DNA of 64,000 nt from Senegalimassilia faecalis (GTDB lineage: Bacteria > Actinomycetota > Coriobacteriia > Coriobacteriales > Eggerthellaceae). This document shows positions 6,697 through 56,560 of the stretch, piece after piece. Where the stretch lies: the NCBI RefSeq assembly GCF_004135645.1, contig NZ_SDPW01000001.1, positions 2,356,001-2,420,000 of the forward strand, in the 5' to 3' direction. Under the pieces are notes generated by a model, which worked only from the letters and a program-made list of their open reading frames with translations, ran no database searches and was not told the origin of the DNA. The position numbers were made by a program, and so were the translations under genes. Each line of letters begins with the position of its first letter. The stretch's first letter is position 1.

Positions 6697-8237
6697 ATGC
6701 GCCTCCCATGCACCACCGTCTTCGCATTGCCCGCTTGCACTGAGCTGTTTCGCTTCTTGCTCTCGGCCCCCTGCATCAAGCGACAAAGGGCGATAGGCAG
6801 CAACAAGAAAAGAATCATGCTGAAGTTCTGCGGCATGTAACCTCGAATGACAAACGAGAAAAGTGCAGGATAGACGATCGAATAGGCGAGCACAGCCATC
6901 GACTTACCCTCAGTGAACAGGTAGCAGTTTTTGAGATGGCGCCCGATGATGCCAAAAAGCCACATGCAGACGACAACACCAACAACGCCGAACTCGATGT
7001 AATACTCGCCCAACGAGGGATATGCAACTCCGTTTACGACCGCCTGGCCGCCAAATCCAAGTCCAACGATTTCATGAACGGCAGGACTCGGCTTAGCAGG
7101 AAACAAAGCCCTGGGTATAAGCAAAACCAGAGAATAAAAAATCATCTGCGAACCGAAAAGGTAATCGTGCTTCGAGGGGACAATGTCCAAAAGCATATAG
7201 AACGCCTTGAAGTCATCAATCTCAGCATAGAACGGATTTAGAAATTCATCGATTGTCATTCCCGACACATCAATGCCGGCACCCGTACGCAAGCCAACCC
7301 TTGCAACCTGCATAAATGCAAATAGAGCTACCAAAGCAATCGAAGCAGCGGCTACAGAACCGCCTTTCGGACTTATCCTGTTCCGAGCGAAATACAGAAC
7401 AATCGGCGCGAGCATACCGATAAGCAGCGTCGCTCGTCCTCCACCGAGGAACATGCAGAGCAACGTCATCGCATATAGAACTACCTTGACACCCCTGTTC
7501 CTGCCGAAAGCATAGATAATCATCCAAGCCCCTAATAGCAAGAATTTCGAATAAGCAAGAAATGCAAGCCCGTCATCGGATGCAAAGTCGTTCAGCTCAG
7601 CACCGGATAAACCACCGGTTAGGATGTAGACTACGTCAAATCCCTTGCGAAGGTAATAGTAGAAATTCAGCACATAGGCAATGACCCAGATCCAACCACA
7701 CCAGTGAACGAATCTACTTGCAAGAACATCCGACACTTCTTGGAAACCAATAGTTGAACACTTTTCTTTCTTGCTTCTTTCCTTCCCCAGCGGAAACTCA
7801 TACCCGAGAAAGAACGCGAAGCAGCCAATCATCACCAAGCACGATGCGGGAACGCAATAGCGAACGACATCGACGCCGTAGCGCGAGGTCGATCCCGCCG
7901 CGAACTGGAAAACCGGCGCCACAAAGTAAACAAGAGCCATTATGAGTACGACAATGGTAAATGGCTCGAACATATAAATGCCCGATCGCCCGTATTTCGC
8001 CAATACTAGAATGGCAAATACCGCGCCTTCGGCCGCCAGCGCGATATAAGCAGCAGAAATATCTGAGGTATGGGCAGAGCCCGCAAGAAATAAAGCATAT
8101 AGACTCAAGCCAAGAAGAAGCAGTATTGCGACAAGAGTCATTAAAAGACTGCCGCGAGACTGACCGAGTTCCTCTTTCACAGACGCAAATGACATGGCGC
8201 GAAGACCCACATTATCAGTTGTTGACGCGAAAGCCAA
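6693..8237 (-). CDS. wzy: Wzy-type O-antigen/oligosaccharide polymerase
   Basis: A 514-residue integral membrane protein with about 12 hydrophobic segments and a large loop in the second half, which is the layout of repeat-unit polymerases (O-antigen polymerase / oligosaccharide repeat unit polymerase family). A tell-tale block near the C-terminal half is ALFPAKPSPAVHEIVG followed by SLGEYYIEFG, common in this family. It would polymerise flipped repeat units on the outer face of the membrane. The start is TTG at 8237, chosen because GAGGAG lies about eight bases upstream, inside the end of the preceding transferase gene; ATG-initiated forms would be shorter by 14 residues. Confidence 0.82.
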   Translation of the reverse strand: MAFASTTDNVGLRAMSFASVKEELGQSRGSLLMTLVAILLLLGLSLYALFLAGSAHTSDISAAYIALAAEGAVFAILVLAKYGRSGIYMFEPFTIVVLIMALVYFVAPVFQFAAGSTSRYGVDVVRYCVPASCLVMIGCFAFFLGYEFPLGKERSKKEKCSTIGFQEVSDVLASRFVHWCGWIWVIAYVLNFYYYLRKGFDVVYILTGGLSGAELNDFASDDGLAFLAYSKFLLLGAWMIIYAFGRNRGVKVVLYAMTLLCMFLGGGRATLLIGMLAPIVLYFARNRISPKGGSVAAASIALVALFAFMQVARVGLRTGAGIDVSGMTIDEFLNPFYAEIDDFKAFYMLLDIVPSKHDYLFGSQMIFYSLVLLIPRALFPAKPSPAVHEIVGLGFGGQAVVNGVAYPSLGEYYIEFGVVGVVVCMWLFGIIGRHLKNCYLFTEGKSMAVLAYSIVYPALFSFVIRGYMPQNFSMILFLLLPIALCRLMQGAESKKRNSSVQAGNAKTVVHGRRI

Positions 8238-45290: not shown

Positions 45291-45334
45291 GCCGGCCTCT
45301 CGGCCGCTCGCGCGCATAGAAAAGCGCCCTCCGC

Positions 45335-45448
<114 letters not shown>

Positions 45449-45579
45449 GCGGGGGGCGCTCCCCCGCGGCTCATGGATATGAGCCTGCCCGGGTCCCCTT
45501 CCGGGGCGACCCTGGCGGCCGTGCAGCGAAGGAAGCTGCCCGCACATCGACGCCTCGCAAAATCCCTTACGAGGATGCG

Positions 45580-50350
<4,771 letters not shown>

Positions 50351-51020
50351 AAGAAGAGCGGGGCCGGTCTCCCGTCCCCGCGATCTTTGGCATAAAAAGA
50401 AAAACTTTAAAAGAAATTGTAAATCCGGGGCAGGCGGGCTCAAAGTAGGTAGGCCCTGCCTGCGCTGGCTTCACTGGCTATTGTGATCGTCTCTTGTCCA
50501 GTATCCGGTTCTCAAGGTTCCCGCCTGCGGGGGTGCTCCCCGCGGCTTTCCCTTCGGAGCAGGCCCGCTTTCGCTTGCCGCCCCTCAAGGCGAGGATGTA
50601 CTTTACGCCTCCCCCGCCGGCTTGGCAAGCCCCCATCTTCGAGATGCTGGGTTCTACACATTTTGCACACATTCTGATATTCTACGAACATCTGTTTGTG
50701 TTTCTTGAATTTCAAGTTCATCGCATCTGATCTCTTAGATGCTCTTGTTTGATGCTTAGCTCATTCGCTCTTGTTCCTCATCCGTTGCTATCTGAGTTCT
50801 TTTGCATTCAACCTTGCTTGTCTTTTCAGACGTCACTGATTTCAATCCTTATACCTTCAGTGCTATTTTCTTTTGCAGCTTAGCTACTGCTACTTTTCTG
50901 TTCCTGCTTTTAATCTGCCTCCCCGTCTCCCACTCTTACCTTCTTTCACTCTTCGTTTTTGAGCTGTCTATTGTAATTAGCGTTTCTTCTATGAGCCGAT
51001 TCGGCCGACTGCCACAACGT

Positions 51021-51050
51021 CTATATACTTCTATATATTTCTATATATAG
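51021..51050. repeat. AT-rich decamer repeats
   Basis: Three tandem ten-base units, CTATATACTT, CTATATATTT and CTATATATAG. Further TTCTATATTT-like elements appear near 51271. AT-rich direct repeats of this size are typical of DNA-unwinding elements at replication origins. Confidence 0.7.
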
Positions 51051-51655
51051 ATGTCTGCTTTCTCTGTCGACTACAGCAGAAGACTCGTTTTCTGAAATCT
51101 TTCTCGCTGCGCCCCAAATATCTAGGTGTTCATTATTTCGTCAACTAATTTTGAAGGCGCTTCTTAATGCGTGGGTAAATAGAATTGTAATCTCCTTATG
51201 GCATCTGTCCTTGTCTGCATGCAATCTTTTATCCTCTGCGTCTACTTGCAAATTTGATTTTGCTCTTGCCATATATCCGCTTCTATATTTCCACTCATGA
51301 TTGCGTTTCTATTCGCGTAGTTACCTCTTTGCATGCAACTCGCCATACTTGCGCCTGCTGACACTGCTTTATTGCTACCCAATACTTGCTTCAAGTTTGT
51401 CCACACATCTCATCTGGTTCTGCTGAGCATTATTGTTTTTGAATCATTTCTTGTATTCATATATTTGCCATTCGGATTTTTCCCATATAGGCATTCTTGG
51501 TCTTTACGAAATTATCTTATGTAATCCTGCTGTATGGTGTCTTCTGAGTCATGCTGTGTCATATATTGTATTTCGGATTTGGTTTCATTTTGATGTTTGA
51601 ATTTTCTTAATCCTATTTCTAAAGCAATATTTTGCAGTCTGTTTCTCTATCGTCT

Positions 51656-51762
51656 TTGCTGCTGTTTGCTTCGTTCTTCAAAATCCTTACTGTGCAGTCG
51701 CTGCACAGTAAGGATTTCCTGAATCCCCATATCACTTAGACCTGCGACACAAACAGCAGCAA
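51656..51762. repeat. dyad site 1 with outer inverted repeat
   Basis: The inner dyad at 51681-51717 has perfect 17-bp arms and three central bases (TCG). Its core is TACTGTGCAG, TCG, CTGCACAGTA. Outer perfect 13-bp inverted repeats (TTGCTGCTGTTTG at 51656-51668 and its complement at 51750-51762) enclose it. Confidence 0.85.
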
Positions 51763-52295
51763 TTGAACTAATCAACATGATGCAGTCACCAAACTGATTG
51801 TGAACTTCCACTGAATTGAAAAAGCCTGAATCGAGTGGCTTCAAATATCTATTCAGCAATCAATCTAATACCATTCATCTAATCAAGTTCAAAGTGAATG
51901 AAACGCTGCTTGTAGCCGACAATCAATTGGACTTGCTCAACCAAGCCAAGTGAGTGATTTCGTCAACGTGGGTTAGTGGGTTATTTCGCTGATGACCGTT
52001 AGTGCTTGCTCGAGTCGATTCATCACTTATAAACAAGCACTCATAGGGATTTGATTGAGTAACTACCACAACTTTACTTGTCTTAAAGATGCATTAGTGA
52101 AACTAAAATGCAGTTGCAACTACGGATTCGCGCAGCTGCAACAGTATCTCCAACAATCAAACTAATCTAGACATGCATCCCGACAGATACATACCTATGG
52201 CAAAAGATAGAGCAGCAGTAAAAGATGCTCGCTGCGCATCAATCTGAGGACATTGAATTAGTCGATGTATGGATTCCGGCTAAGCTGCACAACTG

Positions 52296-52360
52296 GTTTC
52301 TCCTTTCCAGAATCATTACTGTGCAGTCGCTGCACAGTAATGATTCTGGAAAGGAGAAAC
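52296..52360. repeat. dyad site 2, 65-bp palindrome
   Basis: Perfect 31-bp arms (52296-52326 and 52330-52360) flank TCG. The inner 10 bases of each arm are the same core as in sites 1 and 3, while the outer parts differ, so the site was rebuilt outward as a palindrome. A cruciform or very stable hairpin could form. Confidence 0.9.
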
Positions 52361-52514
52361 TGGGTGCGACGAACTTAGGGCAAGCTCGGTCGGCTTATGG
52401 GGTCCAAGGAGATGAGGCCTGTCGACATATAGTTACAGGGTGAAATGCCATACTGTTCTTAGGAGAGTTTTAACAAATAGTTTGTGAAGTGAGCCATTAA
52501 TTATTATATATTCA

Positions 52515-52573
52515 TTGTTACTAAAGACACCGTTTGTTAGAATATCTACTGTGCAGCGACTGCACAGTAGATA
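52515..52573 (+). promoter_or_regulatory. parA promoter with dyad site 3 as operator
   Basis: TTGTTA (52515-52520) and TAGAAT (52538-52543) are spaced by 17 bases. The third dyad (52543-52573, 14-bp arms) starts at the last base of the -10 and covers the expected start of transcription. Its centre is CGA, the reverse of sites 1 and 2. A protein bound here would repress parAB. Confidence 0.7.
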
Positions 52574-52631: not shown

Positions 52632-53633
52632 ATGGCCGGAAGAACCAAAGCACGTGGCGGAGAGAAGCAGCAGCAGTCTCTTTCGCTAGGACGCGAAACC
52701 GTCGAAGAGCTAGAAAAGGAAGCAGAGCGTAGAGGCCTCAACAAGTCTCAACTTGCCGACTTACTGCTAAACGGTCAGCTTACTCAATCGGCGGATAAAC
52801 CGACGATCATTTCGATTATGAGTTACAAAGGCGGCGTGGCCAAAACCACTACCAGCACATGTCTTGCCGTTTGTCTTTCGGAACTGGGATATAAAGTACT
52901 GGTTATCGACATGGACGGTCAGGGCAACGTGAGCCAGAGCCTTCGCGTGTACGACCCGCGCTCCGAAGAGGCTTGCATTGCCGATGTATTGTATCAGACC
53001 TCCCCGAACTCGCCGCGCCTGACGCTGCGCGAAGTAATGAGGACAACCGAGTACGAGAACGTGTACTGCGTGCCTTCGAACTTCCGATTCGCAGATGCGG
53101 ACACGCGCTTGAAAGCAGAAATTGCTGGCGGCGTGGATACCCGACTTCGCTATGCGATTGAAGATCTTATCAGCGAAACTGCAAAAGCAGGCGAACGTAA
53201 GTTCGATTACATCATCATCGACTGCGGTCCTCGCTTGGACATGACTACGACGAACGCGATTGTGGCACTTGAGGCAGGCAATAACGCTTCGCACATCATC
53301 ATCCCGATTAAGGTCGACGGCTTCGCCATTGCCGGCCTGTCTCAGACGATCGATACCATCAACCGCACAGCAAAGGAGCGCCGTCGCCTTCCGCAGCATT
53401 GGAAAATCTTGCAAACGATGATCGAACGCAATACTTCCGCGTATAAATATGGTTGCCAGATGCTGAAAGAAGCGATTCCGAATGCTGAATACTTCAACAC
53501 GAAAATCGAGAAGAGCACCGTGGTACCCGAAGCAAGCTTGGCAATGGAACCGCTCATTACGTACGACCCCAACAGCAAACCAGCCATTTCGTATCGACTG
53601 CTGGCTCAAGAAATCGAGGCCATGAATGCCTAG
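52632..53633 (+). CDS. parA: ParA ATPase with N-terminal ribbon-helix-helix domain
   Basis: A 333-residue partition ATPase. Residues 57 onward have the deviant Walker A (SYKGGVAKTTTS, residues 64-75), Walker A' (VIDMDGQGNVSQSL) and Walker B (YIIIDCGPRLDMTTTNA). Residues 15-49 (QSLSLGRETVEELEKEAERRG, here in two pieces QSLSLGRETVEEL and EKEAERRGLNKSQLAD) look like a ribbon-helix-helix DNA-binding domain. Most ParA proteins have either no N-terminal domain or a helix-turn-helix. ATG 52632 has AGGAG seven bases before it; a longer TTG form is unlikely. The stop overlaps parB by eight bases. Confidence 0.9.
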   Translation: MAGRTKARGGEKQQQSLSLGRETVEELEKEAERRGLNKSQLADLLLNGQLTQSADKPTIISIMSYKGGVAKTTTSTCLAVCLSELGYKVLVIDMDGQGNVSQSLRVYDPRSEEACIADVLYQTSPNSPRLTLREVMRTTEYENVYCVPSNFRFADADTRLKAEIAGGVDTRLRYAIEDLISETAKAGERKFDYIIIDCGPRLDMTTTNAIVALEAGNNASHIIIPIKVDGFAIAGLSQTIDTINRTAKERRRLPQHWKILQTMIERNTSAYKYGCQMLKEAIPNAEYFNTKIEKSTVVPEASLAMEPLITYDPNSKPAISYRLLAQEIEAMNA

Positions 53634-54687
53634 GAAGAAACTGCAAGCTGCCATGAAAAGCGGCGGGGGAGCCGTGGCAAACGTGATTCCTCGACACGAA
53701 AAGCTAACCGATGAGCAAATGCGCTTGGCCGCGTTCGAAGCTCGCGATAATCAGGAAACGTCTATCACCGATAAAATGGCGAACGACAACCGTCGCAATA
53801 CGCTGCTGGCGGAAATGGGCTTTGACTGGTTCGACATCAATAGCCTGACGCCGAATCCTAACAACAGCTACACCATCACCGATGAAGACGTGAAAAACCT
53901 TGCGGGCTTGATCTGGAACAGCAAGGAAATAGAACCGCTGATTCTTCGCGAAACCGAAGACGGCATTCAGATCATCGATGGCGAGCGTCGCTGGAGAGCC
54001 TGTAAACTGCTGGCAGAGAAGTACGGCGATGCATGGCGAATGGTGCCCGGACGCTGCCATAAAATGGGAGCGATTTCCGACGAGCAGGCCAACTTCATCA
54101 TGCATTCCAGCAACATAGGCCAGCGCAACATAAAGCCGTCGGAACGCGCCCAAGGCTTCAAAGTACTGGCTGACAAGCTGGTCGAATGGCGTAAAGAGGA
54201 CCCGGCGCTGAAAGGCGTGAATACTAAGACGTACCTAGCGGAGCACTTCGGAGTATCGGAAAGAACCGCACAGGTGCTGCTGAACATCGCAAGGAACCTC
54301 TCAAAAGAAGGAAACGACCTTCTTGACGCGGGGAGCATCACGCAAACGCAAGCAGAGGCGCTGTCAAAACTGCCGAGTGTAAAGCAAGATGCCGTAGTAA
54401 ACGCAATGCGAGAAGAGAACCTTACGCCGGACGAAATTACCACGCTTATCGAAGCGACCAAAAAGGCTGAAACGGAAACGGAACCCCAACCGGTAAGTGA
54501 GATTACGCGAACGATCAAAGCCGAGCCGCAAAACAAGGAGTCAAAGCCGGCAAAAGATATCAACGGGTATCTGAAAAGCGCGAGAAACGCATTGCGCAAG
54601 GCAGAAAGCGCTGAAGGCGAAGCAGACTTCAGGCTTATCGGCGAGATAAAGGCTTCCATCAGAAACATCGAAAAGTCACTGGAGTAA
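53626..54687 (+). CDS. parB: ParB-like centromere-binding protein
   Basis: A 353-residue ParB-family protein. The CTP-binding N-domain has ITDEDVKNLAGLI and DGERRWRA (the GERR motif, residues 119-122) and box II is SSNIGQRNIKPSERA. The helix-turn-helix is YLAEHFGVSERTAQVLLNIA around residue 210. The C-terminal 60 residues are helical and charged and likely dimerise. It is translationally coupled to parA. Likely DNA sites are the three dyads upstream. It resembles plasmid rather than chromosomal ParB, whose 16-bp parS is not seen here. Confidence 0.88.
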   Translation: MPRKKLQAAMKSGGGAVANVIPRHEKLTDEQMRLAAFEARDNQETSITDKMANDNRRNTLLAEMGFDWFDINSLTPNPNNSYTITDEDVKNLAGLIWNSKEIEPLILRETEDGIQIIDGERRWRACKLLAEKYGDAWRMVPGRCHKMGAISDEQANFIMHSSNIGQRNIKPSERAQGFKVLADKLVEWRKEDPALKGVNTKTYLAEHFGVSERTAQVLLNIARNLSKEGNDLLDAGSITQTQAEALSKLPSVKQDAVVNAMREENLTPDEITTLIEATKKAETETEPQPVSEITRTIKAEPQNKESKPAKDINGYLKSARNALRKAESAEGEADFRLIGEIKASIRNIEKSLE

Positions 54688-56262
54688 GCGGCAATAGTAA
54701 AGGCAATAAAACCGCCAACGTTTACGATAAAGAAGAGCATGCCAAGACAAAGCCCTCTGGAAACTGACAAGAATCAGTGGAAAGAGGGTTTTTGTCACTT
54801 TGAAGTACCTGACAACAGAAGGAGAACCAGAGGTTAAACCGATGGAATCCCCAAGCTTCAGGGCGAGGGAGATAGATGGCAGAACAGAGCACTTCAAAGA
54901 CTCGTATGACAAAAAATTGCAAAGTATATCGTGTTTCTTGTTGTAGCGATTCATTGAAATGATGTTATATGATCTTGTACGTTTTCTTGTTACGGTTTGC
55001 CCTGCAGCCTTGAGGACGGAAGCAACGGTTCGAGGGGAGCAACCTACAGAATTTGCAATCTGGGCATGGGTGTATCCTTCCTGCCTGAGAGACAGAATCA
55101 TGTGATTACGTGTTTGTTTGCGTTGTGCAGTGAGTTGCTTTTGCTCCTTTCGTTCGAGGGAACGCTTCGATTCGAAGAAGTTGAGGTCAACAAGTTCTTG
55201 AGGAGTAAGGGCAAGAAGCTCAGTTAAACGCTGAGCCCCAATGAGGTAGTAGCCTTTTTCGCCTCGAACGTTGGTGACTTCGTCAACGGAAGCGATAACG
55301 CCTGCAAGTTCTTTTTGATCCAGCGGCTTGATGAACTGGTTATTGAAAGTCTTGAGACGAGTTTTCGCTTCGTCGCGCATATAGATTTGCACCGCCGTGT
55401 TGTAGAACACGAACGACATGAGCTCGCGCGTGCCCTCGCAGTCGTAGTTGCGGTATTTCTGCAGTTCGATGAGTTTGCCGAGCCGGCTCATGAGCATCGG
55501 CTGGAAACGCATGATGCTTGCAGGACGCGCAAATGAAGCGCGCAAGGACTGGGTTTTCATTTGAGTATTCGACTGGGCGAAACGGTACAGACTCGAGAGG
55601 CTGTAGAACACGTCTGCGTGTTGCACGAGCGAGGCGAACTGGCCGGCTTTTGCGTTGAACGTACCGGGGATGCGCGAAACACGCGAAACATCGAACGTTG
55701 CGCGATCGACTTCGAGTCCCTCAACAGGGGAAACGATGCGTTCGAGCGTATCGGCCAGGCCGGATTGCACGAGTTCGAACAGGTGAACGGCCTTCTGGTT
55801 GATAGAGCCGCTTTCGAATCGGTACGGCACAGAGCGCTCAAGCACGAAGAAGAGCTGCACGCCACGGCCGGAATTGATGGTCATGGTTGGCTGGGGAAGC
55901 AGGTGCGCTTCGACAGCTTGTTGCAGCACGTTGAGCGCATGGTGCACCGTTGCGTGCGTGCGTGCAGCATCCTGGTTGTGGCAATCGAGGTCGAAGAACA
56001 ACGCGTTCAGCTGTCTGACCTGGTGAGATTTGCGGCAGCACGAAGTGAACCCGTTGTGGGTCATGTAGTAGCTTGCCCGCGGGTTGAAGCCCAAAGCGGG
56101 AAGCGAATCTTTTTTCACAGCGGTATCGGTCCAGGTTCCGTTGGCGCAAGACGACACGACGTAATAGCTGTTGCGGTCGTCATGGGTGATGAGCCGGTAA
56201 AAGGTTTCCCACTCGGATTCCTGAATCGACGATGCCGCTGCGCTCGATTGCTGTCGAGACAT
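54676..56262 (-). CDS. plasmid-type replication protein with primase-polymerase fold
   Basis: A 528-residue protein. Residues 85-200 match archaeo-eukaryotic primase/Rep proteins: ALFFDLDCHN supplies the metal-binding Asp91 and Asp93, NSGRGVQLFFVLE is the following conserved block, and RVSRIPGTFNAKAG matches the motif III region. Near residue 405 is a helix-turn-helix (YTHAQIANSVGCSPRTVASVL). The last 90 residues are unusual, hydrophobic and encoded across the parB terminator, so the original stop may have been lost. It is convergent with parB, overlapping by 12 bases. It would initiate replication of a plasmid-like replicon. Confidence 0.75.
   Translation of the reverse strand: MSRQQSSAAASSIQESEWETFYRLITHDDRNSYYVVSSCANGTWTDTAVKKDSLPALGFNPRASYYMTHNGFTSCCRKSHQVRQLNALFFDLDCHNQDAARTHATVHHALNVLQQAVEAHLLPQPTMTINSGRGVQLFFVLERSVPYRFESGSINQKAVHLFELVQSGLADTLERIVSPVEGLEVDRATFDVSRVSRIPGTFNAKAGQFASLVQHADVFYSLSSLYRFAQSNTQMKTQSLRASFARPASIMRFQPMLMSRLGKLIELQKYRNYDCEGTRELMSFVFYNTAVQIYMRDEAKTRLKTFNNQFIKPLDQKELAGVIASVDEVTNVRGEKGYYLIGAQRLTELLALTPQELVDLNFFESKRSLERKEQKQLTAQRKQTRNHMILSLRQEGYTHAQIANSVGCSPRTVASVLKAAGQTVTRKRTRSYNIISMNRYNKKHDILCNFLSYESLKCSVLPSISLALKLGDSIGLTSGSPSVVRYFKVTKTLFPLILVSFQRALSWHALLYRKRWRFYCLYYCRLLQ
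54753..54793 (+). terminator. parAB terminator
   Basis: CCCTCT and AGAGGG arms, with an inner ACTGA/TCAGT pairing, are followed by TTTTTG on the plus strand, 65 bases after the parB stop. It lies inside the 3' end of the convergent rep frame. Confidence 0.7.
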
Positions 56263-56355: not shown

Positions 56356-56384
56356 TTGTGAGCGCCTGTTCAAAGTGATAAAAT
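56356..56384 (+). promoter_or_regulatory. antisense RNA promoter
   Basis: TTGTGA (56356-56361) and TAAAAT (56379-56384) are spaced by 17 bases on the plus strand. The start would be near 56391. Confidence 0.65.
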
Positions 56385-56390
56385 ATCAAC

Positions 56391-56463
56391 TGTGAGTGAG
56401 TGGTCGATACATGATCACTTAGGCAGCCCCCAGTTGGCGCTGGGGGCTTCTTTTTTTTCTTTT
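56391..56463 (+). ncRNA. putative counter-transcribed RNA controlling rep
   Basis: A predicted RNA of about 70 bases starts near 56391 and ends at a strong terminator. It has two stem-loops: AGTGGTC...GATCACT (56400-56420 region) and the terminator stem. It is transcribed opposite to rep and complementary to the rep mRNA leader, which would run from about 56514 to 56262. This is the arrangement of copy-number control RNAs in plasmids. No known family is matched. Confidence 0.65.
56425..56463 (+). terminator. terminator of the antisense RNA
   Basis: AGCCCCCAG and its complement (56425-56433, 56440-56448) flank a six-base loop and are followed by a long T-tract (TCTTTTTTTTCTTTT). It is a textbook intrinsic terminator on the plus strand, yet no protein gene lies upstream on that strand within 1.7 kb. 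Confidence 0.88.
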
Positions 56464-56520
56464 GTCTGTTCACGGCTTGGGCATGTTGGCGCATGCTTGT
56501 GCCGCTTGTAACGCGTTCAG

Positions 56521-56560
56521 TCTATAACAAAAAACAGTGAAGTGTCCACTGGTTTTTGTT
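56521..56560 (-). promoter_or_regulatory. rep promoter with overlapping operator
   Basis: On the minus strand TGGACA (56543-56548) and TATAGA (56521-56526) are spaced by 16 bases. A dyad with 14-base arms and one mismatch (AACAAAAAACAGTG at 56526-56539 and CACTGGTTTTTGTT at 56547-56560) overlaps the -35 and spacer, so a repressor, perhaps Rep itself, may control it. Confidence 0.65.

Follow-up and report, generated by a model that had tools for sequence, protein, structure and literature searches.

Do bacteria keep two working replication origins on one natural chromosome? To our knowledge, a single replication start per chromosome is close to universal among bacteria, and the known natural case of two is that of fused Vibrio strains. 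The question is raised here by a locus of the gut actinobacterium Senegalimassilia faecalis, where three palindromic dyads are followed by parA and parB on the forward strand and rep on the reverse strand. We analysed it within a window of 64,000 nucleotides, positions 2356001-2420000 of the 2,745,045-base contig C1 in an assembly of 2,748,041 bases; coordinates below refer to the window unless they carry a contig label or are given in kb or Mb. We argue that the locus is probably a plasmid-derived second replication origin (ori2), present besides the dnaA-linked oriC in an apparently single Senegalimassilia chromosome. If so, the chromosome would be a rare natural exception to one origin per chromosome, kept over evolutionary time; a lineage that combines an unrelated plasmid initiator with two termini and two dif-like sites would show a route from plasmid to chromosomal origin; and the timing of two initiators within one cell cycle would become addressable.

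Dyads, partition genes and the parA promoter

A preliminary description of this DNA had reported three copies of a 23-bp dyad, one of them grown to a 65-bp perfect palindrome, and had explained them as centromere and operator for the partition proteins. The geometry is borne out in full. The pattern TACTGTGCAG-NNN-CTGCACAGTA occurs exactly at 51688-51710, 52317-52339 and 52547-52569, where zero matches are expected from 100 shuffles even with three mismatches allowed. With their full, perfect arms, site 1 is 51681..51717 (17-bp arms, spacer TCG) and site 2 is 52296..52360, in which two 31-bp arms around a TCG spacer make up the 65 bp (31+3+31); site 3, with 14-bp arms around CGA, spans 52543..52573. 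Folded as single-stranded DNA, sites 1, 2 and 3 give z of -9.9, -16.1 and -8.0, respectively. Scattering of the core over the genome would have spoken against a role in partition; in all 2,748,041 bases, CTGTGCAGNNNCTGCACAG is found at three sites only, all in the parAB region. Used as a query against plasmids, the dyad region gave zero matches. The spacing TGCA-N5-TGCA presumably resembles a CopG operator, a likeness that we treat as a lead only.

Site 3 does lie on the predicted parA promoter, as had been claimed: its first base is also the last one of the -10 hexamer in that promoter (52515..52543, + strand; TTGTTA-17-TAGAAT with TG before the -10, a consensus match only), so that it overlaps the end of the -10 box and the presumed transcription start. 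According to domain searches, parA (52632..53633, +) encodes a ParA ATPase domain and an N-terminal ribbon-helix-helix (RHH) head, the latter above the Pfam cut-off, and parB (53626..54687, +) encodes a ParB_N domain above cut-off and an HTH-like region, with HTH_ParB and TIGR00180 below cut-off. The locus thus has two features of a ParABS system: a ParA-type ATPase and a ParB-type protein in one operon, with repeated sites clustered beside parAB only. In each of the four nearest genomes, the dyad nearest to parA lies some 60-100 bp before the start codon, directly after a -10-like box. The earlier account is supported in part. The position of this dyad at the predicted parA promoter in the four genomes favours site 3 as a predicted parAB operator, which is the firmest part of the mechanism that we propose, and a centromere function of the dyads for the partition proteins is plausible. 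What the earlier account omits is the plasmid-type replicon at a second GC-skew minimum, to which we return below.

The ParA-ParB-Rep cassette recurs in Senegalimassilia anaerobia JC110 (locus L009; genome G012, contig C4), in an Eggerthellaceae MAG (L008/G056) and in Ellagibacter isourolithinifaciens (L010/G021), and more distant cassettes are found in G101, G039, G131, G013 and G132. The core GTGCAG-N3-CTGCAC stands upstream of parA in six genomes including S. faecalis (3, 3, 1, 4, 3 and 5 copies, the single and imperfect copy being that of G056, whose contig ends there), and among 197 loci it occurs in cassette loci alone. In all species the dyads are on the parA side and none is beside rep. 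No GTGCAG dyads were found in G039, which has a different ParA head and a Rep that is 38-39% identical. The outer arms vary by site and by species, and the observation that they are unlike each other and yet palindromic holds across species: in 18 sites from five genomes, 171 of 288 cells outside the 6-bp core pair within their own site, whereas 5000 swaps of right arms between sites within a genome gave 134 on average and never more than 170.

As a duplex, the core would be a fitting target for a partition protein that binds DNA as a dimer. A comparison of ParA heads and ParB helices with the dyad cores did not distinguish the binder: G131, in which the RHH strand is changed and ParB has diverged, keeps the GTGCAG core. 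The ParA head and ParB would be equal candidates. The long arms would be dispensable for binding of the core by a partition protein. Since the arms beyond the core are palindromic but their sequence is not kept, it is most likely as hairpins or cruciforms that they are of importance. A possible, if somewhat doubtful, alternative is neutrality of the long arms: repair templated by hairpins, or strand switching as the DNA is replicated, would have perfected and lengthened palindromes around a functional core. Arm length and sequence do vary between sites, and in S. anaerobia, where a GGCTTGGCGG minisatellite and a run of N adjoin a long-armed dyad (L009:2400-3060), the end of the dyad arm is the sequence of the adjoining repeat. 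That several genera have comparable long arms at the homologous locus, mostly at distal copies, argues the other way, if not strongly. Neutral arms and a second origin are compatible and not mutually exclusive.

A plasmid-type initiator at the locus

The rep gene (54676..56262, -) encodes a plasmid-type initiator, in which alignment, an AlphaFold model and a fold search point to an archaeo-eukaryotic-type primase (AEP) domain followed by a C-terminal HTH. Relatives of Rep at about 25% identity are carried by 52 plasmids, mostly of Clostridia and Geobacillus, and many are annotated as replication proteins; within the class, members are rare, with 8 of 398 genomes having one. The alignment contains the AEP-like motifs FFDLDCH, SGRG and RVSRIPGTFN along with the HTH. 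Searching the PDB by sequence from this alignment gave HTH matches alone, and the likeness to primases came via the fold search, where the model (mean pLDDT 76.7, pTM 0.48) matched cyanophage S-2L PrimPol at Z 16.5 and also RSF1010 RepB', for which one of the matching structures is the protein bound to its initiator hairpin (Z 14.5). Rep thus combines the catalytic fold and the motifs of a RepB'-type initiator. No helicase domain was found in Rep with Pfam, which leaves replisome loading without an explanation and counts against a second origin, and no RepA (helicase) or RepC (iteron binder) partner was recognised by eye among the neighbouring ORFs.

The interval between rep and upp has a common layout in four species: a predicted promoter, a candidate two-hairpin RNA of 73-75 nt that ends in a terminator whose loop is TTGGCG, and, on the opposite strand, a predicted promoter for rep. 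In the window, the promoter-like element (56356-56384) and the RNA (about 73 nt) together occupy 56356..56458 (+), and the predicted rep promoter is at 56519..56548 (-). Given that this promoter is on the other strand, the candidate RNA would be antisense to the rep leader, a layout suggesting putative plasmid-style copy-number control kept on the chromosome. An Rfam scan at gathering score returned rRNAs and an L10 leader as sole matches, and a literature search for a UUGGCG antisense loop was without a match; we take the loop to resemble that of ColIb Inc RNA, again as a lead only. Another short hairpin with the same TTGGCG loop is present at about 56480 and in S. anaerobia too.

Base composition also changes at the dyads. 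Upstream of them is an rRNA operon (45334..50351, -) whose transcription is directed away from the locus, and the stretch from 50470 to 51670, between this operon and site 1, is non-coding and about 65% pyrimidine. The maximum-likelihood pyrimidine change point in the non-coding DNA upstream of parA falls at 51737, just past the end of site 1 at 51717, and the AT-skew minimum at 51702. The corresponding change point is at 1289 in S. anaerobia, where a dyad starts, and at 6722 in Ellagibacter, where a dyad starts at 6732, so that in three species it comes within 20 bp of a long-armed dyad; as the targets were broad in these three species, and the rRNA leader of the window may contribute, we count the change points as supportive at most. 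No clear change point was found upstream of parA in G101 and G131.

The preliminary description had named a replication hairpin as an alternative for the long arms. With a plasmid-type replicon at a second skew minimum, beside a RepB'-like primase, this is now a serious contender, and the hairpin origins that go with initiators of this kind in RSF1010 (PMC4434180) and pRN1 (PMC4234260) make it attractive, by analogy, to regard the long arms as origin hairpins. One might go further and take the palindromes as ssi-like single-strand initiation hairpins for the Rep primase that have nothing to do with ParA or ParB, which would agree with the RepB'-type fold, with arms conserved in structure and not in sequence, as at the pRN1 origin (PMC4234260), and with a composition that changes at the distal dyads. 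We nevertheless consider this unlikely: site 3 is at the parA promoter, the dyads of all species are parA-sided rather than beside rep, and G039 combines a related Rep with another ParA head and an absence of GTGCAG dyads. We retain a second origin with partition sites as our preferred reading, and do so in part because of Rep's plasmid kin and RepB' fold match, the composition change at the dyads and the site-specific pairing of the arms.

Strand asymmetry, dif-like sites and gene order

Cumulative GC skew, sampled in 20-kb pieces covering about 1.2 of 2.75 Mb, has two minima, at dnaA (~1.02 Mb) and at the locus (2.408 Mb), which alternate with two maxima. In these samples the locus hence sits, as an origin should, at a minimum between two maxima; the cumulative minimum in the window is at 52195. 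The locus does not adjoin dnaA, the best match to which is at C1:1024701, 1.38 Mb off, and is thus no dnaA-type oriC. A 712-aa open frame that weakly matches a DnaA-type ATPase is also present ten times in the genome, once about 3 kb from the contig start; this is probably a mobile element.

At the search stringency used, the sole dif-like matches are C1:109919 (-; dif a) and C1:1956004 (+; dif b), both at skew maxima, and they resemble the Frankia dif quoted in PMC3025954. The skew changes sign at 1.94-1.96 Mb. The terminus near 0.11 Mb is ragged and skew is mixed at 0.35-0.48 Mb, which counts against a second origin. Distances are balanced, at 914 and 932 kb from oriC to the dif-like sites and 452 and 447 kb from ori2. 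When the dif-like sites bound the replichores, seven of seven 16S genes are co-directional with the forks; on a map with one origin (oriC and dif a), the operon in the window is head-on and the other six are not. Only this one operon separates the two maps, and rRNA direction is therefore modest evidence. The two dif-like sites are opposite in orientation and differ in their central hexamers (TATATG versus TATATC), and both traits recur in S. anaerobia.

All four of the sampled single-contig relatives that lack the cassette (G100, G029, G070 and G003) have one-origin skew. A dif-like match is at the skew maximum in the first three, some of which have weaker matches elsewhere, and the search of G003 found none. 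Two good dif-like sites each are found in the cassette carriers G012, G021 and G101, and on the 91-kb contig of Ellagibacter the cumulative skew minimum is at the dyads. G061, from the genus of Ellagibacter, has two good dif-like sites and no Rep match, its origin being perhaps absent from the assembly, replaced or lost; cassette and dif pair are thus not strictly tied. G101 and G131 have cassette and dyads and no skew flip, so that dyads alone are no marker of a chromosomal origin.

S. anaerobia, which is an independent assembly, keeps the linkage across both dif-like sites seen in S. faecalis: its contig C1 is collinear with S. faecalis across dif a (70-190 kb) and continues with orthologues of 16.8 kb and 2.18 Mb, its contig C3 has orthologues of 1.82 Mb on one side of dif b and of 2.00-2.03 Mb on the other, and skew flips sign near both dif-like sites. 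On its cassette contig C4, markers from both sides of the locus are interleaved in one series (2.44, 2.30, 2.24, 2.52 and 2.59 Mb), the order following distance from the cassette apart from a swap of 2.24 with 2.52. Ellagibacter has genes from the right side of the locus on the left side instead, flipped. Point-symmetric rearrangement of this kind is typical of replication origins. Most markers around the S. faecalis locus lie at 0.99-1.83 Mb in G029, around the dif at 1.33 Mb of this one-origin genome, with some scattered, which suggests that the second origin may have arisen in a former terminus half.

We favour a second origin, then, because of the paired skew minima and maxima, the dif-like sites at the maxima, the balanced distances and the direction of the rRNA operons, and because of the linkage and interleaving in S. 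anaerobia, the skew minimum and flipped genes in Ellagibacter, and the one-origin maps of cassette-free relatives. Imagine, instead, that the dyads were centromere and operator only of an integrated plasmid remnant whose origin is silent, and that the extra skew flips came from a 0.45-Mb inversion (~1.956 to 2.408 Mb), for example through recombination between rRNA operons. Operons in opposite orientation do exist at 1.891 Mb (+) and 2.405 Mb (-), and dyads found at the parA promoter, and nowhere but near parAB, would be as expected. However, the skew changes past the 1.891 operon, the minimum at 52195 is outside the other operon (which ends at 50351), and an inversion does not predict a second dif-like site at the other flip; moreover, skew flips at the Ellagibacter cassette despite different neighbours, and genes are shuffled about the cassette in two relatives. 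We regard this scenario as improbable. More improbable still are two circular replicons, an oriC chromosome and a chromid with ori2, joined only in assembly or recently fused: plasmid-type rep and par genes, balanced arms of ~0.45 Mb and a separate dif-like site with its own central hexamer would suit a chromid, but S. faecalis is one contig and, given the linkage in S. anaerobia, a false join would be needed twice at the same places.

Our preferred reading, a second origin, can be outlined as follows. A plasmid replicon would have been domesticated as a second chromosomal origin, with the dyads as its cis sites. Its initiator would be Rep, whose primase is of the archaeo-eukaryotic type and whose HTH would bind DNA; the candidate antisense RNA would probably restrain Rep, and the segregation module would be ParA, with its RHH head, and ParB. 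One of these two, through the ParA head or ParB itself, would bind the conserved core, so that site 3 would serve as parAB operator while sites 1 and 2, inside the origin, would be centromere-like. The outer arms would most likely act as hairpins or cruciforms, with the primase at the locus as their likeliest user. From ori2, whose firing we infer, forks would run in both directions until they reach the oriC forks at two termini, where the two dif-like sites lie, one at each. A bolder version is tentative: a long-kept two-origin chromosome of which about a third is replicated from ori2, where the RepB'-type primase would start leading strands on extruded palindromic hairpins, and whose two termini would carry dif sites of unlike central hexamer and opposite orientation, which would keep Xer recombination from splitting the ring. 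It is speculation, by analogy with Vibrio (PMC6284228), that the shorter ori2 arms fit a later firing of ori2.

Comparison with known systems

Searching the open-licence literature, we found nothing on the replication of Eggerthellaceae or Senegalimassilia chromosomes, and no genus-level two-origin chromosome with a plasmid primase and two termini. Takeover of replication by an integrated plasmid has been described in cyanobacterial dnaA mutants (PMC7198777). Double-origin chromosomes were also predicted for a few bacteria by Gao 2015 (PMC4403523) from skew and origin-like features, in one case with parB beside the second origin; those predictions rest on DnaA boxes, whereas S. faecalis offers an initiator of plasmid type and a second dif-like site, and its map recurs in relatives.

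As in type I plasmid partition loci, clustered dyads precede a parA-parB operon, with one dyad at the promoter; unlike there, ParA has an RHH head and long palindromic arms are specific to each site. RSF1010, where RepB' acts at ssiA and ssiB (PMC4434180, 3h25), shares the primase fold and hairpins at the origin, but Rep is only about 11% identical, RepA and RepC are not seen beside rep, and the dyads are longer, repeated and upstream of parA. ORF904 of the Sulfolobus plasmid pRN1 (PMC4234260) is likewise an AEP-type replication protein with an origin hairpin conserved in structure and not in sequence; it differs in having a helicase domain, undetected in Rep, and in a hairpin that is downstream of the rep gene.

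The closest parallel is with Vibrio cholerae NSCV1 and NSCV2, natural single-chromosome strains and two-origin fusions (PMC6284228). There, too, one chromosome carries a dnaA-type and a plasmid-type origin with parAB, both active by marker frequency in NSCV1, so that two origins on one natural chromosome are already known. In that species, which normally has two chromosomes, the fusion is confined to single strains, and the plasmid-type origin is of the P1 kind (PMC6284228). The S. faecalis arrangement, in contrast, is shared by two or more species of its genus, and probably by Ellagibacter, has a primase-type initiator and belongs to Actinobacteria; what would be new here is a two-origin chromosome at the level of a genus, with a primase of plasmid origin and a pair of termini.
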